Source of the DNA: Acidovorax sp. A79
GTDB taxonomy: Bacteria > Pseudomonadota > Gammaproteobacteria > Burkholderiales > Burkholderiaceae_C
Assembly (NCBI RefSeq): GCF_041154505.1
Contig: NZ_AP028672.1
Location: forward strand, 4,194,501-4,258,500
DNA length: 64,000 nt
Direction: 5' to 3'
Position 1 is the stretch's first letter; each line of letters starts with the position of its first letter. Under the pieces are notes generated by a model. That model worked only from the letters and a program-made list of their open reading frames with translations, was not told the origin of the DNA and did no database searches. The translations under genes and the position numbers were made by a program. This document shows, piece by piece, positions 3 through 23,426 of the stretch.

Positions 3-1517
3 TACGTGCTTGCTGATCGACGCGGATTCATCGTACGACCCAAGCGCATCTCTGAATTGGTGGACGAGATCGTCAACCAGATTCTGTCCAAAAGCTACTT
101 GTCGCTCCGTGGACCCACCGTCAGAGAGGTGCACGGAGAGATTAAGCGGGCTGTGAATCAGCATAACCGTCAGCATGGAACGGATCTGAAAGCGCCATCG
201 GAGCGAACGCTAGATCGAAGGGTTGCAGATATCCCGCCCTACATTCGCGATTGCAAGCGCATGGGGGTTGCTTACGCAAAAAATCATTGGCGCTACAGCC
301 TTTTCGGAGACATGAGCACGCGCATCATGGAGCGGGTGGAGGTGGACCACACTTTGCTGGATGTGTGGGTCATTGATCCGAGAACAGGTGTTCCCTTGGG
401 GCGACCTTGGATCACGCTTCTGATCGACCGCTATTCAGGCTACCTGCTTGGTCTGTACGTGAGTTTCTATGGCCCATCTGCAGCAACTGTGGCCAGAGCG
501 CTCAAATTTGCGATCCTGCCAAAAGAGGAATTGGTGGAGGCGCTTGACGAGCATCCTTTGCGGTGGACGGCCATGGGCGTGCCCGAGCTAGTGGTGGTTG
601 ACAACGGCCTGGAGTTTCACTCACTGCAGTTCAAGCGGATTGGTTGGGAACTGCGCTGCGACATGATCTTCAACCCGGTCCGGCAGCCGTGGTTCAAACC
701 GGCAATCGAGCGTGCAATCAAGGAATCGAATCGGGTACTACCAAGCCACGGTCGTGTGCACACGGTCATTCGCAATGCAATAGCCCCAGATCCCTCCAAG
801 ACTTCCGCCATCATCTTCGATGACCTGTGCACATGCCTCATCCAGTGGGCTTCCCAAGCCTACCCTCTGAGCATCAATCCCAAAACACTCTGCAGGTCCT
901 GGGACTTGTGGGAGGAGGATCGTCAGTCCTGCCCACCCGCAATGTTCCCTGAGCAGTTGTCGGGGCTCGACATCCTCTGCGGTCTCAATGCCCATCGGAC
1001 CGTGGATGGGGACGGTGTGTTCTTCAACTACCTGCGTTTCAACTCTGAGGAGTTGCAAGACTACCGGCGGCTGAAACATGAGAGTTTCCGCACAGAGATC
1101 CGGTTCAATCCTGATGATCTCAGCAGCATCTTTGTGAACCTCCCCAAGGCGCAGTCATGGCTGAACGTGCCACTGCAGCGCCCGTTGTTCAATGATGGTT
1201 GTGGTTTGTCGCTGGTCCAGCTGGAGATCATTCGCGAGGAGGCCAAAAAGAAGCTGACCCGCGCAAATGCATACGAGGAAATGGAGAAGGCCATCTGGCG
1301 CCTTCGCGATAGCTGGGAGCAAGCAGCAACCCGTGGCCTTCGCGTTCGCAAAGACGCCAAACTCATTCGCATGCAGGGACTGACGTCTGTGCCGGTCGCC
1401 CCTTCCAGCCCACTCCTCCCCTCTTCTCAGGAGCCCACGATGCTCGTCAGCCCAGCGATGCAACAAGCGTTGCCTAAGGTCATGCCATTTCCGGCTTTTT
1501 CTCTGGAGGACGAATGA
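3..1517 (+). CDS. Tn7/Tn5053-like DDE transposase (TnsB/TniA family), 5' end outside window
   Basis: Catalytic transposase that would cut and join the transposon ends, working with the TnsC/TniB-like ATPase encoded next. The reading frame is already open at the window edge, so the N terminus (normally the end-binding helix-turn-helix part) is cut off; the first in-window start is a GTG at 6. Numbered from that codon, the rve/RNase H-like core shows D114 in VEVDHT, D199 in VVVDNG and E235 in KPAIER, with 35 residues between the second Asp and the Glu as in the TnsB/TniA/MuA class. A Mu-type C-terminal region follows at roughly 360-450. The stop overlaps the next start as ATGA, so the four transposition genes look translationally coupled. 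No TnsA-type endonuclease is visible; it could lie upstream, or the element may be of the TnsA-less Tn5053 type. Confidence 0.93.
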   Translation, partial: YVLADRRGFIVRPKRISELVDEIVNQILSKSYLSLRGPTVREVHGEIKRAVNQHNRQHGTDLKAPSERTLDRRVADIPPYIRDCKRMGVAYAKNHWRYSLFGDMSTRIMERVEVDHTLLDVWVIDPRTGVPLGRPWITLLIDRYSGYLLGLYVSFYGPSAATVARALKFAILPKEELVEALDEHPLRWTAMGVPELVVVDNGLEFHSLQFKRIGWELRCDMIFNPVRQPWFKPAIERAIKESNRVLPSHGRVHTVIRNAIAPDPSKTSAIIFDDLCTCLIQWASQAYPLSINPKTLCRSWDLWEEDRQSCPPAMFPEQLSGLDILCGLNAHRTVDGDGVFFNYLRFNSEELQDYRRLKHESFRTEIRFNPDDLSSIFVNLPKAQSWLNVPLQRPLFNDGCGLSLVQLEIIREEAKKKLTRANAYEEMEKAIWRLRDSWEQAATRGLRVRKDAKLIRMQGLTSVPVAPSSPLLPSSQEPTMLVSPAMQQALPKVMPFPAFSLEDE

Positions 1518-2410
1518 CCATGAATGACGACATGAACAAGTACTCAGGGCCTCGATCTCCGGAGACCCTCAAGGTCGGTGAACAGGTGTTGAACGTGGTG
1601 GTGGACCATCAGGTCTTCAGACGCATTCGGGATGCCTGCAGAGACCTGATCCACACCATGCGAACGTTGCGTACTCCCAGCGGGATTCTGATCCTTGCTG
1701 AGCCTGGCATGGGAAAGACGCTGTTACTCGACTTGATCAATCGAGAGTTCTCCAAAACGTCGCAGTTGGAAGGTAACTGTCTTCAGGTTGCATTGGACGA
1801 CGCCGTGGATCAGCGCGGGATCGCGTCAGCGATGGCCCTCGCCCTGGGGTACCCAGCGCTACCCTCGCGCCCAACGCTGGTGGCACTCAACCATATGGTG
1901 GGCGTTGGGCTGGAGCGCCGACGCGCTGCCGCCCTCCTGATTGATGAAATGCAGCATGTTTGCGAGGGGCACAAGGACATCACAGCCAGGGCAGCGACCG
2001 ATTGGTTGAAGGTTCGGATGGACACATTCAACTTTCCGGTCATCGGCGCTGGAACCCGCGTTCTGGAGCGACTGGCGGTCATCAATCCCCAGTTTGTGAG
2101 CAGGGCATCAGCCTCCTATGTGATTCACCCTTTCGCCTTTGACGATCAGTGGCGGCAGCTTCTGGCTGCCTTTGCGCAGGCGGTGCAAGCAGTGGACCTC
2201 AGTATCGTGAACACCACGGCATGTCGAGCACTTCATGTGGCGACCGGGGGCAACATGCGCATGCTCAAACGTCTGCTGATGTACGCCTGCATGCATGCAG
2301 CCACCCAACCTCAAAAGATCGTCACCTTGGAATCGTTATCTAAGGGGTTGCGCGACGCAAAAGGTGATGTGTCTGAGGCGAGTGATCCTTTCCAACGGGG
2401 CAAATCATGA
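1514..2410 (+). CDS. TnsC/TniB-like AAA+ transposition ATPase
   Basis: ATPase of 298 residues that would bridge target-site recognition (TniQ proteins) and the transposase. The P-loop reads PGMGKT (G65 to T69) and the Walker B is LLIDEMQH with D144-E145. The length is close to the usual size of TniB and far below Tn7 TnsC, so it fits the Tn5053/Tn402 side of the superfamily. The start overlaps the transposase stop by four bases; an in-frame ATG six bases further on (1520) is an equally possible start. The stop overlaps the first TniQ gene in the same way. Family assignment is secure; the exact subtype is inference. Confidence 0.93.
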   Translation: MTMNDDMNKYSGPRSPETLKVGEQVLNVVVDHQVFRRIRDACRDLIHTMRTLRTPSGILILAEPGMGKTLLLDLINREFSKTSQLEGNCLQVALDDAVDQRGIASAMALALGYPALPSRPTLVALNHMVGVGLERRRAAALLIDEMQHVCEGHKDITARAATDWLKVRMDTFNFPVIGAGTRVLERLAVINPQFVSRASASYVIHPFAFDDQWRQLLAAFAQAVQAVDLSIVNTTACRALHVATGGNMRMLKRLLMYACMHAATQPQKIVTLESLSKGLRDAKGDVSEASDPFQRGKS

Positions 2411-3360
2411 GTTTCGCCTCCAACGCTGGCATGGAATCACCAAAAGAAGCATTTCGTTTGTGGGCCGCAAAGCCGCGTTTGGCGGGGGAGAGCAGCGCTT
2501 CCTGGATTCAGCGGCTTTGTGGAGACCACCAGTACTCGATTAAGGTGCTTGGACAACTACTGGACTACCGGCCAACACGAGGTGATTGGGATCGTGGTCT
2601 GGACGGCGAACCCTGGGAGCGCCTTCTGAGACTAGTCACTGTCCTGGATCGCAGGGACTGGTATGGGGAGATGGGCCTACTCCGGGTAATGCACGAGAGA
2701 GGGAAGCGCATATGCCATTTGCGCATGGTGGGCGTCAAGCCTGCGTACAGATGGTGTCCCACATGCTTTGCAGAAGACAAAACGCCCTATCTGCGATGGT
2801 ACTGGCGCCTGGACAGCATACGTGAATGTTGGGTGCATCAGATCCCGCTGTGTGAGTGGTGTGATGTGTGCGGCGAAGCGTTCTTGGTGCATCGAGCGCG
2901 CCTAGTCGGCAAGTCAGCTTCAATGCTTTCCGAGTGTTCGACCTGTGGAGCGAGCCTGACTTCGCCTATGGCGAACGGTGGGAGCTATGACCGCTTGTTG
3001 CAGCGCAAACTTAAGACCCTATTTGACCCTTGGTGGTCCGTTGCTGGCACTTGCCGAGTCGACTCGTCACTCGCGGTCATGTACCACTTCTCGGTCCTTG
3101 ATCGCCATCAGCTTGCGATGGCGCGAGTCGAAGCAAATGTGGTGCGCCGAGACGAGTTGTTGAAGCAAGAAAAGTTTTGGGTGCTAGGCGCAAACTGCTT
3201 TCGGGAGGATGCAACGCTCCACGTCGACAAAGACGTCACATTTCGGGCGCCGTGGCAATGGAATCTAGATCCTGGGAGCCGGCTGGCCGTTGCTGCAGCT
3301 TTGAGGTCTATACGCATTGAGCGGCGAACCAACAAGAGCAAATTGGAGGTCCCATCATGA
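2407..3360 (+). CDS. TniQ-family protein 1
   Basis: Target-site selection protein of 317 residues, first of two consecutive TniQ homologues. TniQ/TnsD proteins contact target DNA and recruit the TnsC-type ATPase. The N-terminal third resembles TniQ (region around SSASWIQRLCG), and zinc-binding cysteines follow in the CPTC (about residue 119), CEWC and CSTCG segments. It overlaps both neighbours by four bases. It is divergent from the second TniQ protein, so the two probably do different jobs, for instance one for a fixed attachment site and one for other targets; that split is inference from dual-TniQ Tn7-like elements. Confidence 0.85.
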   Translation: MSFASNAGMESPKEAFRLWAAKPRLAGESSASWIQRLCGDHQYSIKVLGQLLDYRPTRGDWDRGLDGEPWERLLRLVTVLDRRDWYGEMGLLRVMHERGKRICHLRMVGVKPAYRWCPTCFAEDKTPYLRWYWRLDSIRECWVHQIPLCEWCDVCGEAFLVHRARLVGKSASMLSECSTCGASLTSPMANGGSYDRLLQRKLKTLFDPWWSVAGTCRVDSSLAVMYHFSVLDRHQLAMARVEANVVRRDELLKQEKFWVLGANCFREDATLHVDKDVTFRAPWQWNLDPGSRLAVAAALRSIRIERRTNKSKLEVPS

Positions 3361-4370
3361 GTATGTTGCAGTTGCCAATCGATTGCGATCAGCAACCCCT
3401 ACCATTTCAGGACGAAATCTGGCCAGGCGAATCAGGGCAAGGTTACTTGCTGAGGCTCGCCGCCCAAAACGGCCTTGGCGGTCTTGCTCGTATCAAGACG
3501 ATGCTCGGTTGCTCACGCTTTCAGACGTTGTATGCCCAGGACGCACCTCAGCTCGCCCACTGGTTTGGAGCGAGCGTTCAGCGATTGTCATACGCGCTGG
3601 AAGCGAACGACGGCAATAAACGCGGTGAAAGCGCTACCTATGTGGGACATAGGCTAGGAAGGAGCTACTTCTTAAATCGATCGCATCCTCGGGTGTGCCC
3701 CGACTGCGTTCATGAGCTGGGCTATTGCCGGGCTGCATGGGATTTCACGCTGACCGTGGCATGCGTCCGACATCAGCGCTTGTTGATCGATAGGTGTCCG
3801 GCGTGTACCTTGCCGCTGAAATGGACCCGGCCTGATCTCTGTTTGTGTGACTGCGGTTATCCCTGGGAGACGCTTGACTTTCGCTCCTGCGCCACTGATG
3901 GCGAACTTCTCATTGCACAGCTCATTGATCTGCGGATGGATGATCAAGAGCCGTTTACGAGAGGGGCGCCAACTTGGGATGGCCCCGCAGGAGATGAGAT
4001 GGATGCAATCAGACTGCTCGTGAAGGATCTCAGCCTGGACGGACTCTTTCGAACCCTCTTTGCTTTCGCCACCGCTGCAGGCTACGAGGCTGAATTCCCA
4101 TCGGAGCGACGCGTGCGGGCGGCTATGCCAAAGGCGCAGCAGACCATCGCGATGAGCATTGCTGTTGGCACCAAGCTCACGCGACAAGAGCGCTTCTCAC
4201 TGACGTCCAGCCCCTCCGTTCTGCTCGACCTGCTGAGAGAAGTGAGCACGGATTTTCGTGCGTCAGCGATAGACATGAGCGTCGCGCAGTCACTCTTCGG
4301 AGCATTTCAAAGATGCAAGCTGGCGAGACATCCAAATCACTTTTCGCAGTCGCAACTAGTCTTGTTCTAG
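3357..4370 (+). CDS. TniQ-family protein 2
   Basis: Second TniQ homologue, 337 residues, and the clearer of the two. The N-terminal signature GQGYLLRLAAQNG is typical of TniQ and is followed by a zinc-finger block with RVCPDCVHELGYCRAAW, then ACVRHQRLLIDRCPAC and a CxC pair before PW. The C-terminal 120 residues have no motif I recognise and may carry target DNA specificity. It starts inside the stop of TniQ protein 1 (ATGA) and ends the transposition operon; the next gene begins 103 bases downstream. Confidence 0.9.
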   Translation: MSMLQLPIDCDQQPLPFQDEIWPGESGQGYLLRLAAQNGLGGLARIKTMLGCSRFQTLYAQDAPQLAHWFGASVQRLSYALEANDGNKRGESATYVGHRLGRSYFLNRSHPRVCPDCVHELGYCRAAWDFTLTVACVRHQRLLIDRCPACTLPLKWTRPDLCLCDCGYPWETLDFRSCATDGELLIAQLIDLRMDDQEPFTRGAPTWDGPAGDEMDAIRLLVKDLSLDGLFRTLFAFATAAGYEAEFPSERRVRAAMPKAQQTIAMSIAVGTKLTRQERFSLTSSPSVLLDLLREVSTDFRASAIDMSVAQSLFGAFQRCKLARHPNHFSQSQLVLF

Positions 4371-4473
4371 TTCGACTTACGTCGGCCAGGCATTTCTGCC
4401 GCTTTCTTCAGATCAGTAGCCAGGCGAGAAACGCAGGCGGGCTGCCGAAAAAATCGAACGGGTCATATTCGTT

Positions 4474-4923
4474 GTGATAACCATTTTTCTTGATTTCGAC
4501 GGAGTGCTACACCCGGAGTTTTGTCATGAGTCCCATCACTTTGCATGCCTCAAAGTGTTCGAACATGTTCTGCGGGAGTGTCCGAATTGCGATGTGGTGA
4601 TAACAAGTACTTGGCGCCTCCATGTTCCGATTGATGGTTTGCGCGGTCGCTTCGCACCTGACCTTTCCGAGCGAATTGTCGGTGTCACCGATGAGTTCGC
4701 CAGGTTGAAAGAAATTCCTGACTCGTTGGTGAGTTTCCAAAGAGAGGCGGAATGCCACGCGTGGCTACGTGCTCACGATAGAGGGATGTACCCTTGGTTA
4801 GCTGTCGATGACCGATCTTGGCTCTACCGTCCGTTCAATCGTTCGCTATTTTTGGTTGACGGAAAGACAGGCCTGACGCGAGAGAATGCGCGAGATTTGA
4901 TTGAACGATTGCGCAGACTTTAG
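4474..4923 (+). CDS. HAD-fold phosphatase-like protein (Swiss-army-knife RNA repair HAD type)
   Basis: Small single-domain protein of 149 residues. The N terminus carries the HAD motif I as DFDGVLH (D7 nucleophile, D9 general acid/base), a motif II-like ITSTW segment follows at about residue 45, and a late acidic VDDRSW at about 109 fits motif IV. This compact version without a cap matches the HAD domain seen in predicted RNA-repair proteins, so a phosphatase acting on nucleic-acid ends is possible; that function is inference. The start is a GTG. It sits 103 bases after the TniQ operon in the same direction and is likely the first cargo gene of the transposon. Confidence 0.75.
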   Translation: MITIFLDFDGVLHPEFCHESHHFACLKVFEHVLRECPNCDVVITSTWRLHVPIDGLRGRFAPDLSERIVGVTDEFARLKEIPDSLVSFQREAECHAWLRAHDRGMYPWLAVDDRSWLYRPFNRSLFLVDGKTGLTRENARDLIERLRRL

Positions 4924-5413
4924 TGCCGTGCTCTCCTTAGATCATGATCACGATACTGGTTTCAGACTGCGGCAAGATCCAGAGCGGAGCTCCGGATGTC
5001 GAAGTAATGATTCTAAAGTGGCTCCGACGACTGGTTTGCAGCGGCTGCAGTCGTTCGACTACCCCTTGTTCCAATCAGCATTCGGCTAGGAGCGGAAGAT
5101 CGCGTGCGTCGGCTTTCCGCTTACCCAATTGCGTGGTCAGAGACGTCAGCGCCGTTGGATGAACGTCGTTTTCATCTGGACTGCGGAAGTCACCGCCTAC
5201 GAACCCATACACACACGAAAACGAAAAATTAACTCTGCTTGGTCCAGTGCTTCGTGGCTGTAATCTGACAGCGGAACCAGCATCGGCTTAAGGACCGGAG
5301 GGCGCTTGACCTAGACTGGCATAGATAAATGCATGATGAGTGGGGCTTCAGAACGATCCGGATGCCCAAGTTCTCCACACGCATTGAGGTATTACAAATT
5401 TGAGGGAGATCCG
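4924..5413. other. Non-coding stretch between HAD gene and ATPase-PRTase gene
   Basis: This 490-base stretch has no convincing gene. It contains a short imperfect inverted repeat around 5157-5176 (GATGAA / TTCATC arms) without a T-run. A purine-rich RBS (GAGGGAGA, 5402-5409) precedes the chosen start of the next gene at 5414. The promoter of that gene presumably lies here, but I could not pick a convincing -35/-10 pair. Confidence 0.5.
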
Positions 5414-8400
5414 ATGTTCACCAAGGACGAAGCGTTTGGGCTGGTCAAAGCCGCATTCCTTCAAGCCCAGCGCAAAGGTGGCCCAGGTGCCAACTTGATG
5501 ACGATGGCGGTGCTGAAGAACCGCCTTCTGCAGATCACTGACCGCCGTTTTGACACCAATGACTTTGGGGCGGCCGACATGCGCGCGTTTGTCGCGCTAC
5601 TCACGCCGATCTTCAAATTGGTGAAGCAAGACGGCAAAGAATACGTCTGCTTGGAGAAATCTGGCGTTGACAACGACGCTCCGAAGGTTGTAACCGCGAA
5701 GCAATTTCCCTCGAAGGCGTCGGCCGAGAGCGTGCTGGAAGCGGCTGCGAAACCCAGGGAAGATGTGCCACGACGCGGACGGATTCGGGAGGATCTATGG
5801 ACCGCACTGATGGACTACACCAGCGGGTATGTCTATGTATGGGACTCCAGCGACGGGCTGGCGCGACCCAAGCGACCTGGTGACCACAACCTTCCCATCG
5901 TGCCGACGCTCACCCCGGTCGAACTTGCCGAGTGGCGCCGCACCTTCCTCGAGGAACAACGCGATCACCTGCAAGGCAGCGAGTTGGCCAGTGCTCAGCG
6001 CTGGCAGGAACAGGGGCTGGCGACGGCCTACCTGCCTTGGTCGATGCAGCAAGTGTGGAATCGCGAGTTGGCTGCGCGGGTCAAGCAAAGGTCTACAGCC
6101 TTTTTTGCTGCAATGACCGAGACGTCAATTGGTAGCTCAGTTGCCACGGCCATCCCGACAGAGACGGAGACAGCCAACGACGCGCTCGCCGACTCCTTGA
6201 CTGCCGCCAGGAACCGTGGCGATGGATTTACCGTAGGCGAACTACTCGCAAAACAACTCCCCGGTGCGGCGGACGAACAGGTCACGGCTCTATTGGCGTG
6301 CGTCATCAGCGCTTGGGCATCGCCACGGGGATTGCATCTTGAGCCGGCTTCTCTCGCGTTGCTCCAAGAAAGCGCTGATTCGTTTTCTGGAGCCAGTTTG
6401 GCTGTCGCATTTGTAAACGCCATTCATCGAATCGATGCTACGGACCCCGAGTTGTCGGAAGAAGCACGTGACTTTGCGTTCAAACTGAAGGATGAGATAG
6501 CGACCGCGTACGGCGTTCAACGCAATTCACCCGTCGAAATGTGCCGGGCTGCGCTCGTTCGCCTGGAAGAACATTGGGCTGCGGCTGCCGCCTCAGTTAT
6601 ACGGTTCCTTCGAACCACGCCGGCAACTGCAAAAATTGCCTCTATTGATTTGCTCAAGGTCGCGCACCGTCTACAGCCGATGTTGATTCCAGCAGAGAGG
6701 GAGTTTCTTAGCGACCTTGATGTTCTTCTCGGCCCCGCCTTCCGAAAAATTTGCGAGGCCCATGAGCGCAACGAAGACACAGACGTGATCCGAAGAGCCC
6801 CAGAGCTTCTCGAAAATATCAAGATCCAGAGCCCGACCTCGGGCGACCCTCGTCTCGGAAGCCAAGCTTGGCAAGCTTTCGTGAAGCCCGTCCTCGATCA
6901 TCTGACCTCGATCATCGAAGACGCCTCTTCCCGTGGTGAAACTGCGCTGGCGCCTATGCTAGCTCTTAGGAATCCCAGCACCAAGGCGGATCTCCGAGCT
7001 ATTGGCGCCGAGATTTTCCTTTCATTCACACTGCGAAATAACGGTAAGGGCCATGCGCGTGACGTATCCCTGCAACGTGAACCTACCCAAGAACAGATGT
7101 TCGATCTCGCCATCGTGGAACCAACGGGACCATTTGACGTGCCCGCCAACGGCGAAAAGTTGGTCCGCATTCGTTTGGTGCTCTCACAGCCACAGACTGA
7201 GATCCAAATTCCGATCCAGTGGACATGCGTCACTGGTGCGGAAAAAACCTCTGTTCAGCCAGACCGCCTCCTGATCCTCCAACAAGTCACCGAACCCAAC
7301 TGGGAATCGATGCTGTCGGAGCCTCCTTATTCCCTCAATCCGATCAAGAATCCAGAGCGACTCCATGGCCGGGATTCTCTGCTTCGGAAGCTGAATCTAG
7401 CAGCAATGGCAGGTACGTCAACTTTCGTTTGGGGACAGAAGCGCATCGGCAAGACTTCACTGCTTCAGGTCTTGGCGGCCAAACTTGCAGATCGCGAAGA
7501 CACCACCTGTATTCTTCTAAGAATGGGTGAACTCGCGTCATTGCATGAGGGTCAACTTGCGCATCGAATTGCGCGACGGCTCGTGCAGAAGGCTTCGAGT
7601 GCCATACAGGTACCCGCGGAATCCGAGTTTGGTGCAGGGATTAACCTGTTAGTACCGTTCGTAGAGCAACTGTCGGCAACGCACCCCAAGCAAAAGTTCG
7701 TGGTCATCATTGACGAATTCGACGATCTGGACGCTGCGTTTTACACGGGCGAGCGAGGCCGCCAATTCATAAAGGGTCTGAGATCCGCTTCGGAGGCCGG
7801 GCTGACGTTTTTCTTCATCGGTAGCGAGCGAATGGACGCGATCTTCAGCAGACATCAAGCTGACCTCAACAAATGGACAAATGTCCGCCTCGACCGGATC
7901 GACAGCGCGGCGGACTGCCGAAGCCTAATTGAAGCGCCCGTCGGAGGCGCGATCGAGTTCGATCCTGAAGCCATCGAGTTCATAACAGGCTACACCTCTG
8001 GGAACCCTTTCTTCATCAACAACTTCTGCTATCAGATCTTCGATCGTTGCCTTCAGGAGCATAGGACGTTCGTGGACGCGAATGACACATCTGCGATCCG
8101 GCAACAACTGCTGCGCTCGCTGGGTGCGACCAACTTTTCTCACTTCTGGGAGGACAACCCAGTGCTCGACGCAGCAGAAAAGCGCCGAGACGCGGCGGAG
8201 AACTGCATCGCTCTCTCTTGCATCTCTGCTCTCGGCGGTCGCTATGAAGGGATCGACGAACTCCTGGAGGCTCAAGAGAGCCTTCCAATCGACGCTCAGG
8301 ACCGCGCGCAGGGATCGGTATTGCGGCGCGCTTGCGCACGCATGCTGCAGCGCGGCGTTCTCGAGCAGCGAAAGGACGGTGAAGGATTCGTCGTGGCCTT

Positions 8401-9415
8401 ACAGATCTTCCGAGAGTGGCTTGGGGAGAACTCTCGAGCTCAGCTACTTCCCATCTGGTGCAATCTCGTCGAAGCTGAACGTGCGACCCGAACCAGCGAA
8501 GATAAACTGCCGGCGCCTGTGGATACCGCTGACACCGCGTTTCCGATCAGTGACGACGACATGCTCGTCGTGGCGCAGCGCCTAATCTACTGCGGTAGAC
8601 AGAAAGACGTCGCTGAAATCAAGAGCTGGCTCCGGCAGTTCGATGACGACAGCCGGATCGAAATTGCATTCCTCCTCCTTCAAAGGATGGCTGATAAGGG
8701 CTTTATTAACGAAGGCATGCGCGGCGTTCAATTGGAGAAGGTCGAGCAAATGATCCTGGCCAGACGCAACGGTGTTGGCCATGGAATCTGGAAGATCGTG
8801 AAGGGCCGCCGGGACAACTTGGCCATCGGGTACCTTGATGCCGAGCATAAAAGTGGCGCGACGATGGCGCGGGAATTGAAAAGCCGAGTCCTTCCAGGCA
8901 AGTGCGTTCCAGCAGCGGAACTCGGTCAGTGGATGCGAACGCATCTCGACGCTGACGCAATGGTGGCCATCGTCGACGATTTTTCGGGTACCGGGGAGAC
9001 GATGCTCAAGGGGTTAAGAAAGTTCAAGACGGCGGTTGGTGCGGAGACTTGGGGACGGTACGTAGAGGAGAGTCGAATAGCTGTCTTTATTATGTTTGCT
9101 TTCCCCGAGGCGCTCGAAGCCATACGCGGTGAATTCCCCGACGTCGAAGTTCACTCTGCCACTGTGTTCGGGGACGAACTTCGCTCCTGCAGTGATCAGG
9201 CCAGCATCTTTTCGACCGAAGACGAGCGCGTGTTCGCTCAGGAGGTAGTGCAGCAAATCGGTCGAGAGTTGGTTCCGGGTACCCCGTTAGGACACGGCGC
9301 GATGGGCGCGCTCGTAATCTTCCACAATACCGCGCCCAATAACACCCTTCCAATTTTCTGGAGCGGTGGATCAGTACAGGAGCGCCCGTGGAAGCCGCTG
9401 TTTCCCCGACCTTGA
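5414..9415 (+). CDS. LOTUS-like / beta-sandwich / STAND ATPase / PRTase-CE multidomain protein, putative defence factor
   Basis: Very large protein of 1333 residues that looks like a one-gene conflict system. Domains in order: residues 1-85 resemble an OST-HTH/LOTUS winged helix (a fold that binds RNA in other proteins); an alpha-helical linker to about 510; a CARDB-like beta-sandwich at about 525-630 (FTLRNNGKG); a STAND/AAA-type ATPase at about 650-900 with Walker A GQKRIGKTS (G674-S682) and Walker B VVIIDEFDDLD (D767-E768); a winged-helix region; and a C-terminal phosphoribosyltransferase with the PRPP loop VDDFSGTGE (D1188-D1189, G1192-G1194) and a late ALVIFHNTAPNN segment typical of the PRTase-CE conflict family. 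The frame is open from an ATG at 5333, but the RBS GAGGGAGA lies just before ATG 5414 and the LOTUS similarity starts there. Function is inferred: nucleic-acid sensing, ATP-driven switching, then PRPP- or nucleotide-directed effector activity. Confidence 0.8.
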   Translation: MFTKDEAFGLVKAAFLQAQRKGGPGANLMTMAVLKNRLLQITDRRFDTNDFGAADMRAFVALLTPIFKLVKQDGKEYVCLEKSGVDNDAPKVVTAKQFPSKASAESVLEAAAKPREDVPRRGRIREDLWTALMDYTSGYVYVWDSSDGLARPKRPGDHNLPIVPTLTPVELAEWRRTFLEEQRDHLQGSELASAQRWQEQGLATAYLPWSMQQVWNRELAARVKQRSTAFFAAMTETSIGSSVATAIPTETETANDALADSLTAARNRGDGFTVGELLAKQLPGAADEQVTALLACVISAWASPRGLHLEPASLALLQESADSFSGASLAVAFVNAIHRIDATDPELSEEARDFAFKLKDEIATAYGVQRNSPVEMCRAALVRLEEHWAAAAASVIRFLRTTPATAKIASIDLLKVAHRLQPMLIPAEREFLSDLDVLLGPAFRKICEAHERNEDTDVIRRAPELLENIKIQSPTSGDPRLGSQAWQAFVKPVLDHLTSIIEDASSRGETALAPMLALRNPSTKADLRAIGAEIFLSFTLRNNGKGHARDVSLQREPTQEQMFDLAIVEPTGPFDVPANGEKLVRIRLVLSQPQTEIQIPIQWTCVTGAEKTSVQPDRLLILQQVTEPNWESMLSEPPYSLNPIKNPERLHGRDSLLRKLNLAAMAGTSTFVWGQKRIGKTSLLQVLAAKLADREDTTCILLRMGELASLHEGQLAHRIARRLVQKASSAIQVPAESEFGAGINLLVPFVEQLSATHPKQKFVVIIDEFDDLDAAFYTGERGRQFIKGLRSASEAGLTFFFIGSERMDAIFSRHQADLNKWTNVRLDRIDSAADCRSLIEAPVGGAIEFDPEAIEFITGYTSGNPFFINNFCYQIFDRCLQEHRTFVDANDTSAIRQQLLRSLGATNFSHFWEDNPVLDAAEKRRDAAENCIALSCISALGGRYEGIDELLEAQESLPIDAQDRAQGSVLRRACARMLQRGVLEQRKDGEGFVVALQIFREWLGENSRAQLLPIWCNLVEAERATRTSEDKLPAPVDTADTAFPISDDDMLVVAQRLIYCGRQKDVAEIKSWLRQFDDDSRIEIAFLLLQRMADKGFINEGMRGVQLEKVEQMILARRNGVGHGIWKIVKGRRDNLAIGYLDAEHKSGATMARELKSRVLPGKCVPAAELGQWMRTHLDADAMVAIVDDFSGTGETMLKGLRKFKTAVGAETWGRYVEESRIAVFIMFAFPEALEAIRGEFPDVEVHSATVFGDELRSCSDQASIFSTEDERVFAQEVVQQIGRELVPGTPLGHGAMGALVIFHNTAPNNTLPIFWSGGSVQERPWKPLFPRP

Positions 9416-9773
9416 TCAAGTGCCGCATTTGCACGAACTGCCGGCCGGGTCATAGGAGCTGTGGAGTAGCGATAGTTAACGACCGCGCGATCCTGATCTG
9501 ACCGTCGGGTTTAAGTCTGGCTGTTTCGAAACTCAACTGACTCCTTTGGGCCTGTGGCCGCGGGCCGATGAGCGGCGCTCAGAAGTCCGCAACCAGCCTG
9601 TAGCTGTCGCCTGCACCCTTGACCCCCTAGGCTACGCAAAATACCCGGTAGCGCAAGACTCCAGGTGCAGTGGAGCCTCAACTTGGACAAGGGAGGCTGG
9701 CAGCGTCCCACCGTCACGTTGTTTAACCGCTAGGCGATCCATGCCTTTCGGCTTGAGTTCTCGGTAGCATGCG
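9416..9773. other. Non-coding stretch before the PD-(D/E)XK protein gene
   Basis: About 360 bases with no supported gene on either strand; open frames here are short and lack recognisable motifs. It separates the ATPase-PRTase gene from the nuclease-like gene, so the two are probably transcribed separately. I found no clear terminator or operator. Confidence 0.45.
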
Positions 9774-11993
9774 GTGATGAACGAGCACTACTACGACACA
9801 TTGGTCTCAGCAGCTCGCGAAAAAGGCATGACGATCTCAGCCGCAGCGGACGAAGCGGCGATGGCATTTCTAGACGGAAAACCGGCGGGTCAAGGTAAGC
9901 ACAAGTGGAGTGGCGGAGATCGACAAACAGCCTTCTGGAACTCGGAGTTTCTGAAGGACCTACCCGCAGATGTGTGGCGCCAAGAGACCCTTGGCTTGGC
10001 CTTAACGCGTTACCTTGGCCAGGACCGGTTGGCATGCCCTGAGATCGTGGCGCAGATAGCCACAATCGCTCCCGACGTGCTTGTTTGGGCTACCCGCCAC
10101 TCTGGCCTTGTGATGCGACAGGATTCTCCGCGTTGGTTGGAGATCAGCGCACTGAATACAAATCAGCACCAAGCGCTCATCGAACTAAAGCGCGTGTTTC
10201 GCATATTCCGGGAAGCCCATCAAGTGCGGCAAGAGGAAGTGGAGCGTCTTCGCAAGCCATTGTCCGAGCTCGCTCCTCTGGATTTGCTGGTTTATGCCAG
10301 CCTTTTCGCCTTTGAGCACCAAATACCAGACTTGGTCTATGGTCGGTCCCAACCGGAGATGCCCGATGCTCAGGAAGCGTGGGATGCCATCGACGACATA
10401 TTGGCCTGGAAACTTTCCAACTGCGATCCGTCCGATGTGCAGTTGACTGAAATGTCTATCGCCTCGTCAATGAGGCAGCATCTGATCCCATTTCTATTCC
10501 CGTCTGGGGAGAGGCCGCGACACGATTGCTATCAGGCATTTCTCGAATTGTTGGGCGCGCAGGTCGAACTGAACGCTTTCGAAGATAGATCTGCAGACGC
10601 CTTCAGTTACGACGACTCCATTCGATTTGAGCGAAATGGAGATCGCCTTGAGATCGTCGAGGCGGATGCCGATGCCAGAACTGCATGGCGTCGAGATGGC
10701 AAGAAGTTCGACCTTTTGCACCAGTACTGGTTGTATCGGGGAATGGATGCCGTCATGGCCGATCCTGACCTGCTAGGCCGCGTAAGTCCTGCGCACCTTG
10801 AGGCCAATCTTCAGGCCCTGGCCAAGGCGAAAGGCACATGGCTTCGTTTGCAAGAGGTCTATGGCATGGCCGAGCAGGTGCGAACAGACGCGGGCTCATC
10901 TGCAGCGCCCTTTCATGTGCTGATGGCGACCGAGCTGATGACGGCCTTTTTCATTGAAGACTACCTCAGGCCCTATCAGCAGTACCTATCCGAGACAGGA
11001 AATTCTTTTCTCGCTTTGGGTCGGTTGGCATTTGGCGGCTTGCTTCAGCCCGACATGCAAAACCGCTTTCCGCTCACCTGGTCGGATCGAGCGGCCAAAG
11101 TTGATCGCATTAAGCCTTGGACGGCTACGGCAGAGCATCCAAGTGGCTCCGCACGATCTGCAGAGGCAATCCTGGACTTCATGACATGTGACTGGGCTGC
11201 GATGGCGAAGCAGTTGCGCGACGGTGATGCAACGTTGCGTTCCCGCTGGCAAGAGCGTCCCTTGTTCAAAATGGGGCGACTCTCTCTCCAACTGCCATGG
11301 ATGATGGCTGTACAGAACAACGCTGCGGCAGTCATCAATAACCTTCGCCGGTTGGGCGCCCGAAGAAATGAAGCCAAGGAAGAGACCCGTCGAATTGAAG
11401 AACGGCTCGGAGCGCTTTTCAGAGAGCGTGGATTCCACGTGGTTGTCGGATACGAGATCCCCGTACTGGGTACAGAGGATGCCAACGCAGGGGAAATCGA
11501 TCTGATTTGTGCCCGAGACGGGCATGTGTTCGTCTTGGAGCTCAAATCAACCTACCAACGCCGCTCAGTGAAGGAGGCGTGGGCACATCGAACTTCTACG
11601 CTTCGAAAGGCAGGTCTGCAGTTGAGCAGGAAGGTCCCCGCTGTCCAGCGTGCGCTTGGACGGGACATGGAATTGACGGCTGCGCTCGGTCTTGTGAACT
11701 GCAGGACTGCGGTCACGGCCTGGATCGTTGATACCTCGATCGAATGGGATCACCAACTGTTCCAAGGTTTCCTCAAGGTCTCTCTGGAAGAGGTGCTGAT
11801 TGCACTGCGAGACGACAGGCGGCTTCTAAATGACCCGCATGGCCTGTTTGGTGGACAGGCCGTTCCTGATCAGGGTGCGGAGGAATATGCGGAACCAGAC
11901 AAAGACGACACCCTGTATCCGGACGGGTTCTCTGCCGGGAGGTTTGTTGAGGTGATTGAAACGGCTGCTGTGTGGGCGGGCCTTTGTTGGTAG
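9774..11993 (+). CDS. Uncharacterised 739-residue protein with C-terminal PD-(D/E)XK nuclease motif
   Basis: I do not recognise the family of the first 540 residues, which look mostly alpha-helical and lack a P-loop. The C-terminal part (about 545-640) has a restriction-endonuclease-fold signature: EERLGALFRERGF, then GEIDLI with D576, then HVFVLELKST giving E589-x-K591. This D...ExK arrangement is typical of NERD/Mrr-like and related nuclease domains. Annotation start is GTG 9774; the ATG immediately after it (9777) is as likely. The gene lies between the ATPase-PRTase gene and Wadjet, so a DNA-cleaving defence role is reasonable inference. It could be a helper of the upstream protein or a stand-alone system. 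Confidence 0.72.
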   Translation: MMNEHYYDTLVSAAREKGMTISAAADEAAMAFLDGKPAGQGKHKWSGGDRQTAFWNSEFLKDLPADVWRQETLGLALTRYLGQDRLACPEIVAQIATIAPDVLVWATRHSGLVMRQDSPRWLEISALNTNQHQALIELKRVFRIFREAHQVRQEEVERLRKPLSELAPLDLLVYASLFAFEHQIPDLVYGRSQPEMPDAQEAWDAIDDILAWKLSNCDPSDVQLTEMSIASSMRQHLIPFLFPSGERPRHDCYQAFLELLGAQVELNAFEDRSADAFSYDDSIRFERNGDRLEIVEADADARTAWRRDGKKFDLLHQYWLYRGMDAVMADPDLLGRVSPAHLEANLQALAKAKGTWLRLQEVYGMAEQVRTDAGSSAAPFHVLMATELMTAFFIEDYLRPYQQYLSETGNSFLALGRLAFGGLLQPDMQNRFPLTWSDRAAKVDRIKPWTATAEHPSGSARSAEAILDFMTCDWAAMAKQLRDGDATLRSRWQERPLFKMGRLSLQLPWMMAVQNNAAAVINNLRRLGARRNEAKEETRRIEERLGALFRERGFHVVVGYEIPVLGTEDANAGEIDLICARDGHVFVLELKSTYQRRSVKEAWAHRTSTLRKAGLQLSRKVPAVQRALGRDMELTAALGLVNCRTAVTAWIVDTSIEWDHQLFQGFLKVSLEEVLIALRDDRRLLNDPHGLFGGQAVPDQGAEEYAEPDKDDTLYPDGFSAGRFVEVIETAAVWAGLCW

Positions 11994-18064: not shown

Positions 18065-19317
18065 TCATGGACACGCCCGAATCATCCTCGCTGCCCGATC
18101 CGCCTTCGCCGCATCCCTTCCTGCTGCGCTTGGCCCGGTTGTTGCTCGCCAAGGCTGAGCGCAGCACGGCCCAGGGGCCGGTTCGCCTGCCGCTAGACCG
18201 CAAAGCTGCGCCAGATTTGCACGATGCGGTGGATGCCGACCAGATCCAGTTGCTGCGCATGCAACTCGATGACCTGTGTGCCACGGGCTGGGTCGCCTTG
18301 CTGCTGGAAGCGCCTCGCGCATTCGCCAGCTTCAGCGACCGCAAGCCCCGGCTGGAGCTGTGCGATTTCGACGCCCTGGCGGCGTGGGCCGGATACACCC
18401 CAAAGGCCCAACGCTGGCGCCAGCAGTGGCGCGCGCACTTGGCCGCACACTGGGCGGCGAATCCGCTGGAGGCACCTGCGGATCCGGCCGCCGTGCTGGA
18501 CCACCTGGCCCGTAGCCCATTGGTCCCTGTAGAAGGACTACCTGTAGAAGAGGCCACCCGCAGCCTCGCCACCTTGACCAACTTGTGCTGGTCAGGCCGA
18601 ACTATGGCCCTCCGTGAGGCCTCAGCGCGCGTCTTTCAAGGCCGCTCCAAGGTGTTGGACCATCGAGAGGAACTACTGAAACTATTGGGTGCGACGTCAG
18701 GCCAATTCTTCGAGGCGCCGATCCAGTTGCTGCTGGCGCCGCCCAGTCCAGGGCTTGCGTGCGGCGATGGACGTTTCCCAGCTTTCGAGGATGTGCTGTT
18801 TATTGAGAACTTGGTCACTTTTGAGAACATGGCCGACGCACGCGCTTCCGCCTGGGCGAGAAGTCTGTTGGTTTATGCGGCAGGTTTTAGGGGTAGCGCG
18901 CGAAGGCTACGTTCACGCATTGGCTGCCGTCTGTATTTGCGAGATCCTGCATGTAGGGAGATGCTGCCAGCAATCTGCTCTTGGTTGTTTGACCTCCCGG
19001 GGGACTGTCGAGAGAACTCGCAGACAGTGCCGGTGTATTTTTTTGGCGACCTAGATCATTCCGGTATGCAGATACTTGCCAGCCTTCGAGGGGGGTTTCC
19101 CCAGGCTAGTGCTTGGCGCCCCGGATATGCCCAATTGGCTGGACTGCTGGCCAGCGGCCAGGGGCACTTGCCCGAAATGGCGGCTAAGGCTCAGCAAGCG
19201 GACCCCGAATGCACTGGATGCTCGTATGCGGACGGAGACCTACTTCCGCTATTGCGAAGACTAGGGCGCTTTGTCGACCAAGAGGCTTTCGATTGCGCTG
19301 AAGACCTGGGCAGTTGA
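18046..19317 (+). CDS. jetD: Wadjet type I nuclease subunit JetD (Toprim)
   Basis: 423-residue JetD, the topoisomerase VI-like nuclease that cuts the plasmid when loop extrusion stalls. Toprim features are visible: the catalytic Glu in VLFIENLVTFENM (E254) and the DxD pair in FFGDLDHSGM (D335, D337). The N-terminal part corresponds to the DUF3322 arm. The ATG at 18046 lies inside the jetC end; ATG 18067, three bases after the jetC stop, is an alternative start that would remove seven residues. From roughly 18.65-18.78 kb to the end the codon use turns AT-richer, mirroring the start of jetA. This is the last gene of the operon. Confidence 0.93.
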   Translation: MQALALIMDTPESSSLPDPPSPHPFLLRLARLLLAKAERSTAQGPVRLPLDRKAAPDLHDAVDADQIQLLRMQLDDLCATGWVALLLEAPRAFASFSDRKPRLELCDFDALAAWAGYTPKAQRWRQQWRAHLAAHWAANPLEAPADPAAVLDHLARSPLVPVEGLPVEEATRSLATLTNLCWSGRTMALREASARVFQGRSKVLDHREELLKLLGATSGQFFEAPIQLLLAPPSPGLACGDGRFPAFEDVLFIENLVTFENMADARASAWARSLLVYAAGFRGSARRLRSRIGCRLYLRDPACREMLPAICSWLFDLPGDCRENSQTVPVYFFGDLDHSGMQILASLRGGFPQASAWRPGYAQLAGLLASGQGHLPEMAAKAQQADPECTGCSYADGDLLPLLRRLGRFVDQEAFDCAEDLGS

Positions 19318-19439
19318 AGGATAAATTTGAAACACCCAGTGAGTCTTGAGTGAGGTGAGCCGGGTGGCCTGGCGTGACACTCTTGGCTAGGTATTTCACT
19401 AAAGTAAAGCGGCGCTAAATCCTCACCGACGAAAGTAGA

Positions 19440-19794
19440 GTGACGCAACTGCCTAAGCAACAATGGCGCATTTTTCTGGAAATCCTTATAAATCAAAGAC
19501 TTAGTGCTGATGAGTTTCTAAGAATCATTGCCGTTCCGCAGGTCGCTCGTAGAGTTCGGGCTGTCCCGAATCACCGCATCCGCGATTGCGGGCCTCATCA
19601 CTGACTCTTCGCTGCCTCCGGACAAAGTGAAGGCCTGGATACGAGCCCAGCCAGAGGAAATGCTGTCAAAACTGCCCAGTCTCATCCTCGCAGAGCTGAG
19701 AGCCAAAGACCTGCTGCGCTCCGATTCGGTGGGCGAAGTGGTTTTGTCAGTCCAGGAGGCCCGCTTCTTGGCCGACAGCGGACGCTCGGAATAG
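19440..19794 (+). pseudogene. Small hypothetical gene, apparently frameshifted
   Basis: A GTG-started frame from 19440 reads a plausible protein start (VTQLPKQQWRIFLEILINQ) up to about 19520. Then a second frame, open from 19522, continues as a plausible helical protein ending at 19794 (ITASAIAGLITDSSLPPDK, later AELRAKDLLRSDS). The two halves could be one protein of about 115 residues broken by a one-base shift near 19525-19560. Alternatively only the second half is expressed, from TTG 19528 (88 residues). I do not recognise the family. It follows jetD by 120 bases and may be the last cargo gene of the island. Confidence 0.35.
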
Positions 19795-19940
19795 GCTTTG
19801 CGAACGACAGCAAACGCTGCACAGCCGCCGTTTGCGTCCGTTCTCGCAAGTATTAGCGGGCTCGGGCCGGAACGTGCTATCAAGATCTTTCTGTGCTAGC
19901 AGATGCTTCAAGTTGCATGCTGTGAACGCGCTTGTCGCTG

Positions 19941-19965
19941 AAAAAAAGGGCACCCGAAGGCGCCC
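19941..19965 (-). terminator. Rho-independent terminator of the porin gene
   Basis: Read on the minus strand, a 7-bp stem (GGGCGCC / GGTGCCC with one G-T pair) closes a TTCG tetraloop and is followed by seven T. It lies 33 bases beyond the porin stop codon. It also marks a left boundary of the conserved-looking chromosomal part. Confidence 0.85.
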
Positions 19966-19997
19966 TGAAACTTGGAGACAACCGTTGTGAAGTGCGC

Positions 19998-21182
19998 TCA
20001 GAACCGGTGGCGCACCCCCACTGCAAAGCTGGTGCCCTGTGCGCTGATCACCGAGGGCGGTGCAGGCAGCGTGCGGGTCTGGGTGCTGTCGCGCATCACC
20101 ATGGCATACAGGTCCGTGCGCTTGGACAGGAAGTAGTCATACCCCAGGGTGAACACCTTGCGCTCCACATTGCCGCCCGCCACCGTGGCGGGCACGGGGC
20201 CCACGGTGTCGCTGGTGCGGCGCACCGCGTAGCCCGCCAGCACGCGGCCCGCGCCCACGGGCACGGCAGCGCTCACATCCCACACGCGGTATGCCACGTT
20301 GAGCGGTGCAGCGGCCGTGCCCCGGTTGTCGATGCGGCCCAGGTGGGCAAACAGCTTGACCACCTCGAAGTCGTACGACGCGTCCAGCTGCCAGGCGCGT
20401 GTGTCGTTGGGTGAGGTGCCGTCGGCAAAAGTGCCGGGGTTCTTCTTCACGCTCTGCCACGCCAGCGATGCGGCCCAGGGGCCCTTGGCGTAGGCCAGGC
20501 GCGCAGCGCTGTTGCCGCCGCCTTGGCCTTCGGAGATGGCGTGCGCCACCGAGGCATTGAAGCCCGCGACGTTGGGGCTGTCATACACCACCGAGTTGGC
20601 CCATGCCGTGCCACCTGTGAGCGGGCTGCCGATGAAGGTGACCAGGTTCAGCGGCCCGAGCACGGTGGAGTCGCCGAACGCGTTGGAGGTGATGGAGCTC
20701 AGGAACAGCAACGACGTGACATTGCCCAGCCGCACCCGGCCCCAGTCGCGGTGCGACACGCCCACCCAGGCGGCGCGCGAGAACACGGGGTCGGCCGCCA
20801 CGTTCACGGGCGCAGGCAAGGCGTCGCTGCGGCCGGTGGCGCCCGAGTCGTTGCGCACAAAGGACGACAGCTCAAACTGTGCCGACAGCCCGCCGCCCAG
20901 GTCTTCGGTGCCGCGCACGCCCCAGTGGCTGGTGGACATGCCGCCACCGTCGAGCTTGGTCACGGCGCGGTCCTGCGCATTGATGCCGGCAGCGGGACCC
21001 GCAAAGCGGCCCACAACGGCATCGACCAGGCCATACAGCTGCAGGCCGGGGCCTGATGCGGGTTGGGCCTGCGCGGCGAGCGTGGCGGCAGACAGGACTG
21101 CTGCGGTGCCCAGGCTGCGCGCCCAGGGCTGACGGGCCCCAGGGTGGGAGGGGTGGGGCGTGGGGGATGTGCGAGGTTTCAT
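19998..21182 (-). CDS. Gram-negative general porin (Burkholderiales OmpC/Omp32 type)
   Basis: Outer-membrane trimeric porin of 394 residues for passive uptake of small solutes. A signal peptide is visible, with an unusually long basic n-region, a hydrophobic stretch LGTAAVLSAATLAAQAQ and cleavage near residue 39. The mature part begins LQLYGLVDAVVGRF, continues with alternating beta-strand patterns (HWGVRGTEDLGGGLSAQFEL, then RLGNVTS) and ends VGVRHRF with the C-terminal Phe required for BAM insertion. A good terminator follows. The start is the ATG at 21182; shorter signal peptides would need internal starts that are not obvious. Confidence 0.92.
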   Translation of the reverse strand: MKPRTSPTPHPSHPGARQPWARSLGTAAVLSAATLAAQAQPASGPGLQLYGLVDAVVGRFAGPAAGINAQDRAVTKLDGGGMSTSHWGVRGTEDLGGGLSAQFELSSFVRNDSGATGRSDALPAPVNVAADPVFSRAAWVGVSHRDWGRVRLGNVTSLLFLSSITSNAFGDSTVLGPLNLVTFIGSPLTGGTAWANSVVYDSPNVAGFNASVAHAISEGQGGGNSAARLAYAKGPWAASLAWQSVKKNPGTFADGTSPNDTRAWQLDASYDFEVVKLFAHLGRIDNRGTAAAPLNVAYRVWDVSAAVPVGAGRVLAGYAVRRTSDTVGPVPATVAGGNVERKVFTLGYDYFLSKRTDLYAMVMRDSTQTRTLPAPPSVISAQGTSFAVGVRHRF

Positions 21183-21480
21183 GGTGTCTTTCGATGGGTA
21201 GGGGGCAAGCGAAGGGCGAACCGGCCCACGGCGCAGCCAGGGCTGTTCCGAAGAGGCAGTTCAACGGGGGAAAGGTGTCAGCGCGTTATGTGCGCTCGGG
21301 TCGTGGCGGCTAGGGTGCGCCGGTCTGGCGTGCCGACGCCGTGGGTGGGGCGGCAGCGCAGGGCCCCAGCCACCTGGGGTAGCGGTGGGTAGAGGCCATA
21401 AAAATGGGCGTGGCTGTGCCTGGCATGCGGCGCTCGCGCGGCAGTGCTGGTGATCGGGGCGGGGTGTCAGCGGTTCGGCG

Positions 21481-22230
21481 TCAGTGCACTGCGCCTTCAC
21501 AGGCGCCGCGCATGCCTTGCGCAATAAAACGTACCAGCAGCGGCCCGGCCGTGGCCTCGTCGCCGGGCTGGTTCTGGCCGTACGACAGGCGCTCGATGCG
21601 CTGGTCGTTCACGTGGTGCAGCAGCGCGCCCAGCGCAAACTGGTAGCACCACGCGGCCTGGCTGCGCGTGGCCTGGGGCAGGGCGGCTGCAATGGCGTCG
21701 ATGAACGCATGGGCCAGCGGGTCGAACAGCTCGCGGATGATGGGCTCGTCTTCTTCCAGGTGGTCGTTCATGCCGCGTGACAAAAGGCGCAGAAAGTGGT
21801 GGCCTGCGGGCTGGCTGGCCACTTCCAGCACGGGCAGCACAAAGGCTTTCACGATCTCTTCCAGCAACTGGCCGGGCGGTGCCTTCTGCTGGGCATCGGC
21901 CAGCGACTTGAGCCGCACGTCGATGTAGCCCGCATGCGCGCGGAAGATGGCGTGGTACAGCGACAGTTTGGGGCCGTAGTAATAGCCCACCAGTGCCAGC
22001 GGCACGCCAGCCTCGTCGGCAATGTCGCGGATCGAGACGCCGTGAAAGCCGCGCGTGGCAAACAGCCGCTCGGCCGCCTGCAGGATGTTGGCCTGGCGGT
22101 TGGGGGGCAGCGCTTCTTCGCTAGTGGCGCTGGGGGCGGCAGCGCGCTTGCGCGCCGGTAGTGGTGCTTTGGCCGCCAAGGCTGTGGGCGCTGCAGCCGC
22201 TGCTTTTTTGGAGGGGGTGGATTTGGGCAT
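21481..22230 (-). CDS. TetR/AcrR-family regulator (CecR-like C-terminal domain)
   Basis: Predicted repressor of 249 residues. After a lysine/alanine-rich N-terminal tail, the HTH runs from about 55 to 100 (AAERLFATRGFHGVSIRDIA, then GVPLALVGYYYGPK). The C-terminal domain resembles the DUF1956/CecR type. The frame is open further upstream, but ATG 22230 is preferred because the longer form would extend across the promoter palindromes. It is divergent from the Bug binding protein gene at 22400, and the 170-base gap holds two related palindromes, so it likely represses itself and the 22400-25279 operon. Confidence 0.88.
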   Translation of the reverse strand: MPKSTPSKKAAAAAPTALAAKAPLPARKRAAAPSATSEEALPPNRQANILQAAERLFATRGFHGVSIRDIADEAGVPLALVGYYYGPKLSLYHAIFRAHAGYIDVRLKSLADAQQKAPPGQLLEEIVKAFVLPVLEVASQPAGHHFLRLLSRGMNDHLEEDEPIIRELFDPLAHAFIDAIAAALPQATRSQAAWCYQFALGALLHHVNDQRIERLSYGQNQPGDEATAGPLLVRFIAQGMRGACEGAVH

Positions 22231-22238
22231 AGGCTGGT

Positions 22239-22254
22239 TTATACGTTTGTATAA
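22239..22254. promoter_or_regulatory. Palindromic operator O1 of the TetR regulator
   Basis: Perfect inverted repeat TTATACGTTTGTATAA (arms TTATAC / GTATAA, four-base centre) only eight bases upstream of the tetR-like start. Binding here would block transcription of the regulator itself. It matches the second site O2 at 12 of the 16 positions at least. Confidence 0.65.
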
Positions 22255-22293
22255 ATTTATTGAACACTCGTACAAACCCTGGTGATTCGGCGT

Positions 22294-22310
22294 TTGTACG
22301 TTCGTATAAT
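22294..22310. promoter_or_regulatory. Palindromic operator O2 overlapping a TATAAT -10 box
   Basis: The segment TTGTACGTTCGTATAA (22294-22309) repeats O1 with one mismatch in the left arm. The hexamer TATAAT at 22305-22310 fits a -10 box for the rightward Bug/cyclase/FAH operon, so a bound repressor would cover the promoter. A further half-site, CGTACAAA, lies at 22269-22276. Confidence 0.6.
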
Positions 22311-22399
22311 TTTTTCATGCCGCCCGCTGCAGGCCCTGTCGCACAGGGCTTGCGGAGCTTGTGCTGCATACCCACCCATACCTACCGGAGACAGACAAC

Positions 22400-23392: not shown

Positions 23393-23426
23393 TCGCCTTG
23401 TTTCGACCTTTCCACCCGACCCCGCC

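Follow-up and report, generated by a model that had tools for sequence, protein, structure and literature searches.

A LOTUS / beta-sandwich / STAND-type ATPase / PRTase-CE protein of Acidovorax sp. A79 as a predicted single-gene defence system

What is the function of a large protein that carries a likely molecular switch and a predicted effector in one chain, and whose gene lies between transposition genes and a Wadjet system? The question is raised by a stretch of 64,000 nucleotides from Acidovorax sp. A79 (NCBI RefSeq assembly GCF_041154505.1, contig NZ_AP028672.1, positions 4,194,501 to 4,258,500 of the forward strand), hereafter called the window. The domain order of the protein – LOTUS, beta-sandwich, STAND-type ATPase, PRTase-CE – agrees with that proposed in a first-pass annotation of this DNA. 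We predict that the chain is probably a self-contained anti-phage or anti-plasmid system, with the ATPase as likely switch and the PRTase-CE domain as effector. The open reading frame (ORF) spans positions 5333-9415 on the plus strand; an ATG at 5414, with GAGGGAG just before it, gives a product of 1333 amino acids with the following parts:

5414..9415, plus strand: whole gene, 1333 amino acids; alternative upstream start at 5333
5414..5662, plus strand: LOTUS/OST-HTH-like winged helix, residues 1-83 (AlphaFold model, family profile against OST-HTH ORFs, hhalign, Pfam in 4/22 relatives)
5663..5773, plus strand: low-confidence linker, residues 84-120 (predicted local distance difference test, pLDDT, < 50)
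5774..6118, plus strand: conserved segment, residues 121-235, called "DLW" after its motif (found in 93/121 homologues)
6161..6946, plus strand: helical region, residues 250-511, candidate common sensor (found in 118/121 homologues)
6953..7294, plus strand: beta-sandwich, residues 514-627, PapD/ASH/MSP-like (structure model, PDB matches)
7322..8428, plus strand: STAND/ORC-clade ATPase and winged helix, residues ~637-1005 (Pfam, structure matches)
7433..7459, plus strand: Walker A, residues 674-682 (motif, alignment)
7700..7717, plus strand: Walker B, residues 763-768, with D767 and E768 (motif, alignment)
8000..8011, plus strand: GNPF, residues 863-866, presumed GxP-type STAND motif (alignment)
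8618..9409, plus strand: PRTase-CE domain, residues 1069-1332 (Pfam PF24390, PADLOC PRTase_III-A)
8849..8857, plus strand: KSG, residues 1146-1148, possible pyrophosphate-loop motif (alignment)
8972..9001, plus strand: phosphoribosyl pyrophosphate (PRPP) loop VDDFSGTGET, residues 1187-1196 (motif, alignment)
9335..9361, plus strand: PNNTLPIFW, residues 1308-1316, varied form also in other PRTase-CE proteins (alignment)

The putative effector is recognized by two models. The Pfam model PRTase-CE (PF24390) scores 116.6 bits against a curated cut-off of 27 and is matched over its full length (profile 1-253 of 253), and the PADLOC model PRTase_III-A gives 80 bits over residues 1178-1332; no other PRTase-CE match occurs in this genome. 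Conservation of the motifs was assessed in 57 aligned sequences including that of the window, with identities to the latter down to 21%. D1188 is kept in 55 of them, while D1189, G1194, K1146, S1147, P1308, N1309, L1312 and P1313 are each present in 56, with a gap in the other row. For the ATPase, Pfam lists AAA_22 (29.8 bits, residues 668-809). Both the Walker A residues (G674, Q675, K676, R677, G679, K680, T681, S682) and the Walker B acids D767 and E768 are found in 57/57 sequences, followed by the GNPF motif (G863 in 55, N864 in 54 and P865 in 56), which we take to be the GxP motif of STAND nucleoside triphosphatases (NTPases). Walker A, Walker B and the PRPP loop VDDFSGTGE all stand at the residues that the first-pass annotation had quoted. 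Structure models were made separately for the N-terminal and the C-terminal half, and the PDB matches listed for them fall on the beta-sandwich and on the ATPase, respectively. In the structure comparison, ATPase and winged helix together match the STAND/ORC clade, and NLR and CED-4 serve as structural models for this part. In one relative from a Myxococcales metagenome-assembled genome (MAG; L021:1241-5025), ATPase and PRTase-CE are encoded by separate, overlapping ORFs, whose junction we estimate to be near the domain border – perhaps a natural two-gene form, perhaps a sequencing frameshift.

How widely is this arrangement shared? A protein search yielded 151 homologues at E<=1e-3, and the 120 listed ones together with the window protein form the set of 121 used for family counts. 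Domain profiles detect the beta-sandwich and the ATPase in all 121, the PRTase in 120, the helical region in 118, the DLW segment in 93 and LOTUS in 80. A scan of genome contigs gave 84 relatives, of which 80 were retained; among the 60 locus proteins longer than 700 amino acids, the ATPase is present in 60, the PRTase in 57 and LOTUS in 12. The distant relatives, mostly of ~1040-1150 amino acids, retain ATPase and PRTase and have a different N-terminus. The family consists of a single gene, is well conserved and has its switch and enzyme motifs intact; it is likely a defence system.

That one gene constitutes the unit, as the first-pass annotation had read it, is borne out by blastn comparisons of window positions 1-30000 with two close relatives. 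Homology to the Variovorax locus L002 (88% DNA identity) is restricted to 5219-9552, and to the Pseudorhodoferax locus L003 (84% DNA identity) to 5267-9441, i.e. to the gene and less than 200 bases beside it. Upstream of the match, both loci carry ~10 kb of unrelated sequence. Downstream, ~600 unmatched bases follow in L003; the right border of L002 is uninformative, because its contig ends ~20 bases past the match. From these alignments the gene appears to move alone.

Candidates for a partner gene were considered and rejected. The two nearest are:

4474..4923: HAD_SAK_2 gene (PF18143, 100 bits), separating the PRTase gene from the transposition genes
9774..11993: gene of a 739-amino-acid protein whose C-terminal domain resembles NERD (72 bits against the PADLOC viperin-associated NERD model)

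Both lie outside the shared unit; tblastn finds no match to the HAD_SAK_2 protein at the other fetched loci, and the sole match to the NERD protein among the fetched loci is the window's own copy. A search for a recurrent partner by clustering of flanking ORFs gave a largest cluster of 11 loci, all within L069-L081, whose relatives match in the ATPase only and were excluded from later family counts. In these 11 loci (L069, L071-L075, L077-L081, mostly Chloroflexota MAGs), a gene of ~480 codons with a P-loop-like start recurs downstream. The next clusters, from 6 and 5 loci, resemble genes of type I restriction systems, and their L002 members are confirmed by PADLOC.

In what company, then, is the gene found? 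In the window, TniA, TniB, TniQ and TniQ-like genes and HAD_SAK_2 lie upstream, and the NERD gene and the Wadjet genes jetABCD downstream. PADLOC was run on 30 hand-picked neighbours of 16 relatives, i.e. the 15 nearest ones and the more distant L026, with matches at E<=1.5e-19 regarded as strong. Strong matches comprise type I restriction at L002, a type IV restriction-like system at L003, CBASS SAVED effectors at L004 and L005, IetA and LmuA at L006, a methyltransferase and a ZorD-like helicase at L012, DndC and DndD at L014, and, in the wider family, Gabija GajA and GajB at L026. Defence genes thus occur near 7 of the 15 closest loci, the neighbours having been chosen non-randomly, and together with Wadjet in the window this agrees with the defence-island setting of the first-pass annotation. 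At L004:7642-9159 and L005:14338-15852, the CBASS SAVED-PDDEXK effector gene adjoins the STAND-PRTase gene on the opposite strand.

Several results weigh against a defence role exerted by an active PRTase. At the remaining 8 of the 15 loci (L007, L008, L009 with a weak match of 1.2e-7, L010, L011, L013, L015 and L016) PADLOC gives no strong match among the one or two proteins scanned at each; three were scanned at L005, which has hits. A blind check, in which 113 sampled neighbours match 163 PADLOC models and 113 control proteins match 33 (E<=1e-20), is supportive, not decisive, because the models are redundant and 25 are listed for each set, so that distinct proteins are uncountable. It covered 113 of 127 sampled neighbours at 57 of 64 loci, the ATPase-only loci L066, L067 and L069-L081 and the partial loci L044 and L050 being left out of the sampling; the controls came from genomes of the window's order (19 of 20 stretches, the twentieth giving no ORF). 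At the top of the neighbour list are type I specificity subunits (3 members) and GajB (2, near copies at L026 and L027), and at the top of the control list mad3 (2) and PD-T4-6. On the enzyme side, a PDB search with a profile of 15 PRTase-CE sequences returned 11 matches at E<=10, the best at a non-significant 0.23. They comprise six proteins named phosphoribosyltransferase, two PyrR proteins, one ribose-phosphate pyrophosphokinase, one hypothetical protein and one ribosomal protein, and are suggestive, not significant. The listed structure matches of the C-terminal half cover the ATPase, and the PRTase fold lies outside them. Furthermore, 6 of 9 PRTase-CE proteins encoded near a reverse transcriptase have TD in the loop instead of DD, so catalysis may not be a shared property of the domain. 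The first-pass annotation had named two outcomes that would speak against defence, namely a structure search without a PRTase or LOTUS fold and homologues mainly in housekeeping contexts; neither outcome was observed, the listed structure matches lying outside the PRTase domain.

In the N-terminal half, the Pfam matches of the window protein up to E = 1 do not include OST-HTH (PF12872), but those of 4 of 22 members do, with a best value of 6.2e-5. The assignment to LOTUS draws on a comparison with 25 loci that have OST-HTH matches, taken from 60 genomes of the window's order and containing 708 ORFs. A profile of 48 family N-termini placed OST-HTH ORFs at all of ranks 1-19, and each of the 19 matched inside or across the OST-HTH place, including three that were automatically labelled 'other' on account of an overlap below 60 bases. 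The remaining OST-HTH ORFs rank lower, mixed with unrelated ones, and only the top match (L099, E 4.7e-7) is significant alone, the second having an E of 0.02. An hhalign comparison of the N-terminus with 18 of 24 OST-HTH domain slices gave P 1.4e-5 and a probability of 80 over 79 columns. In the AlphaFold model, residues 4-80 run helix-strand-helix-helix-helix-strand-strand, while the listed PDB matches of that half concern residues 514-627 only. The top match L099 is itself a protein of the same genome (G000:C1:5128552-5131737), i.e. a second LOTUS-bearing protein of ~438 amino acids.

Does LOTUS decide when the protein fires? The first-pass annotation had made it the sensor, and one could suppose that the same defence gene is triggered when LOTUS binds phage RNA, e.g. 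G-rich or G-quadruplex RNA, and activates the ATPase. The presence of LOTUS in 80 of the 121 proteins favours this, as does the literature, in which RNA-binding OST-HTH modules and STAND NTPases occur in bacterial conflict systems (PMC8195603) and LOTUS domains, bacterial ones included, are reported to bind G-quadruplex RNA (as cited in PMC12247748). However, the LOTUS profile has no match in 41 of the 121 (5 short proteins of 768-984 amino acids, 19 of 1096-1122 and 17 of 1153-1250, some perhaps with mis-called starts), and a quickly built tree of 57 selected rows, whose outgroup branches are long, requires 7 changes of LOTUS presence; distant relatives moreover retain ATPase and PRTase without it. 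Because of these absences and changes, LOTUS is best described as an optional front end; it is ruled out as a sensor common to all members, and its role as decisive sensor is unlikely. The helical and beta-sandwich region is the likelier common sensor.

Two further explanations dispense with defence altogether. The protein could be an ATP-dependent enzyme that serves in the metabolism or repair of nucleotides or RNA bases and is carried on mobile islands by chance, an idea in keeping with PRTases as classic enzymes of nucleotide metabolism and with the upstream HAD_SAK_2 gene, whose family is named after RNA repair. Yet that gene stands apart from the shared unit and has no tblastn match at the other fetched loci, the neighbourhoods of the family vary with no recurrent metabolic partner, and defence genes accompany almost half of the nearest loci; we hold this explanation to be quite improbable. 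Still further from the evidence is an accessory of a Tn7/Tni-like transposon, e.g. a factor for target selection or immunity whose PRTase serves in binding. The unit common to L002 and L003 excludes the transposition genes, structure matches to STAND/ORC proteins score above TnsC, and the two acids of the PRPP loop are conserved almost throughout (55 and 56 of 57 sequences), which makes such a role very improbable indeed.

For the predicted defence system, we envisage the following course. The N-terminal half – helical region and beta-sandwich, with LOTUS in most members – would bind a cue of infection, which is probably a nucleoprotein or a nucleic acid. Driven by ATP binding, the STAND module would then assemble in the manner of NLR and CED-4 rings and thereby release the C-terminal PRTase. 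Once active, the PRTase would use PRPP, or run backwards with pyrophosphate, and may modify or degrade a nucleotide or nucleic-acid base, so that growth of the infected cell stops. A bolder and rather doubtful version sees a new class of reversed-STAND single-protein receptors. In these, LOTUS and the helical/beta-sandwich region together would sense nucleic acid at the N-terminus, perhaps G-rich RNA of a phage, and set off a C-terminal PRTase that attaches phosphoribosyl to a nucleotide or nucleic-acid base. To our knowledge, toxic attachment of this kind has not yet been described in immunity. Several defence settings include PRTase effectors; here a predicted effector is joined to a likely switch in one mobile gene with intact motifs. 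The action of an immune PRTase would thus become testable with a single construct, and could be studied without reverse transcriptase or multicopy single-stranded DNA (msDNA). If confirmed, the system would add a type of STAND defence for which we found no dedicated model in PADLOC 2.0.0 or NCBIfam 20.0.

How does the protein relate to known systems? Close to it is the type III-A retron, which shares the PRTase-CE family, the PADLOC PRTase_III-A match and a varied PNN..P signature. In contrast, the window's PRTase-CE domain is fused behind a STAND ATPase and has DD in the loop, where 6 of 9 reverse transcriptase-linked proteins have TD, and Pfam finds no reverse transcriptase family in the adjacent genes (6-4920 and 9774-11990), so that retron membership was rejected. 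Compared with Avs proteins, the layout of the window protein is reversed: its sensor-like parts come first and the PRTase effector forms the C-terminal end. No Avs model is among the 6 PADLOC families that match at E<=0.1. Operons at L160 and L164 likewise pair PRTase-CE with an ATPase of the ORC/CDC6 kind, although in two genes instead of one; PF24389 is not listed for the window family, and the family's ATPase profile gives no match at these loci. The DS-32-type protein (NF053875) and DprA-PRTase resemble it as PRTase-type proteins tied to anti-phage activity (PMC13092281, PMC9122126), but differ in partners and architecture, and membership in the DS-32 type was rejected at 14.8 bits against an NCBIfam cut-off of 250. 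According to the literature, retron III-A has PRTase/WH effectors (PMC12548924), DprA-PRTase protects against T7 and lambda while the mode of action of retron PRTases is unknown (PMC9122126), PRTase domains occur in validated DefensePredictor systems (PMC13092281), and PRTases of mobile elements are called enigmatic (PMC5512222). This literature supports the class, not the window protein itself. No dedicated model for the LOTUS/STAND/PRTase-CE arrangement is among the matches in the two model collections, and it was not found in the searchable literature, where subscription papers are few, so that its absence there proves little. The component domains are already known; their arrangement is new among the models and literature searched.

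Of 398 genomes drawn from across the phylum, 18 have PRTase-CE above its cut-off, one of them being the genome of the window, and among these 18 only the window copy lies in an ORF of more than 1000 amino acids. A reverse transcriptase is encoded 0.8-0.9 kb away on the same contig in 9 of the 17 other genes, which is consistent with retron III-A. The PRPP loop and the PNN motif recur in varied form in the 17 proteins; KSG is not seen in the 9 reverse transcriptase-linked ones, as aligned. From the other eight genes, neighbours were examined for L157, L158, L159, L160 and L164 (L140-L142 were left out). L160:5917-10616 comprises a PRTase-CE gene with an ORC-CDC6-like ATPase gene (424 bits) immediately behind it and then a methyltransferase, L164:3914-9897 a SIS/HAD-like protein, the PRTase-CE gene and, immediately behind that, an ORC-CDC6-like ATPase gene (37.4 bits, partial), and L159:5833-7380 encodes a 515-amino-acid fusion of PRTase-CE to an OLD-like TOPRIM. 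Because the partners differ – reverse transcriptases, ORC-CDC6-like ATPases, a TOPRIM fusion – PRTase-CE appears to be an exchangeable effector. L157:2342-12891 holds an operon of a SNF2/NOV_C helicase with helix-turn-helix (HTH), PRTase-CE, NADAR, a DUF1156 methyltransferase-like protein and a further large ORF; the layout of L158:2339-12891 is equal judged by ORF sizes, Pfam having been run on L157 only. With PRTase-CE and NADAR side by side, this may be a defence system of several genes, and one may speculate that the product in L157 is a glycosidic adduct. A search of 72,556 plasmid records with a 60%-identical homologue (P0031) as query gave two weak PRTase matches, and 50,697 phage records gave none.

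Is the gene, finally, cargo of a transposon, as the first-pass annotation had it? TniA, TniB, TniQ and TniQ-like genes directly upstream speak for this, and the G+C content of the gene (56.7%) is close to theirs (56.6%), compared with 63.8% for Wadjet and 66.8% for window positions 25001-64000; by this measure, gene and transposition genes alike have the appearance of foreign DNA here. The element's ends were not found: an exact 14-base inverted-repeat search of the left flank against window positions 19201-30000 gave zero matches. Rfam likewise has zero matches in window positions 1-30000. The TniA-like gene is preceded, a little beyond the left edge of the window, by an ORF (L127:10868-11575) that looks TnsA-like by eye; if this is true, the element would be Tn7-like, of the tnsABC/tniQ kind.

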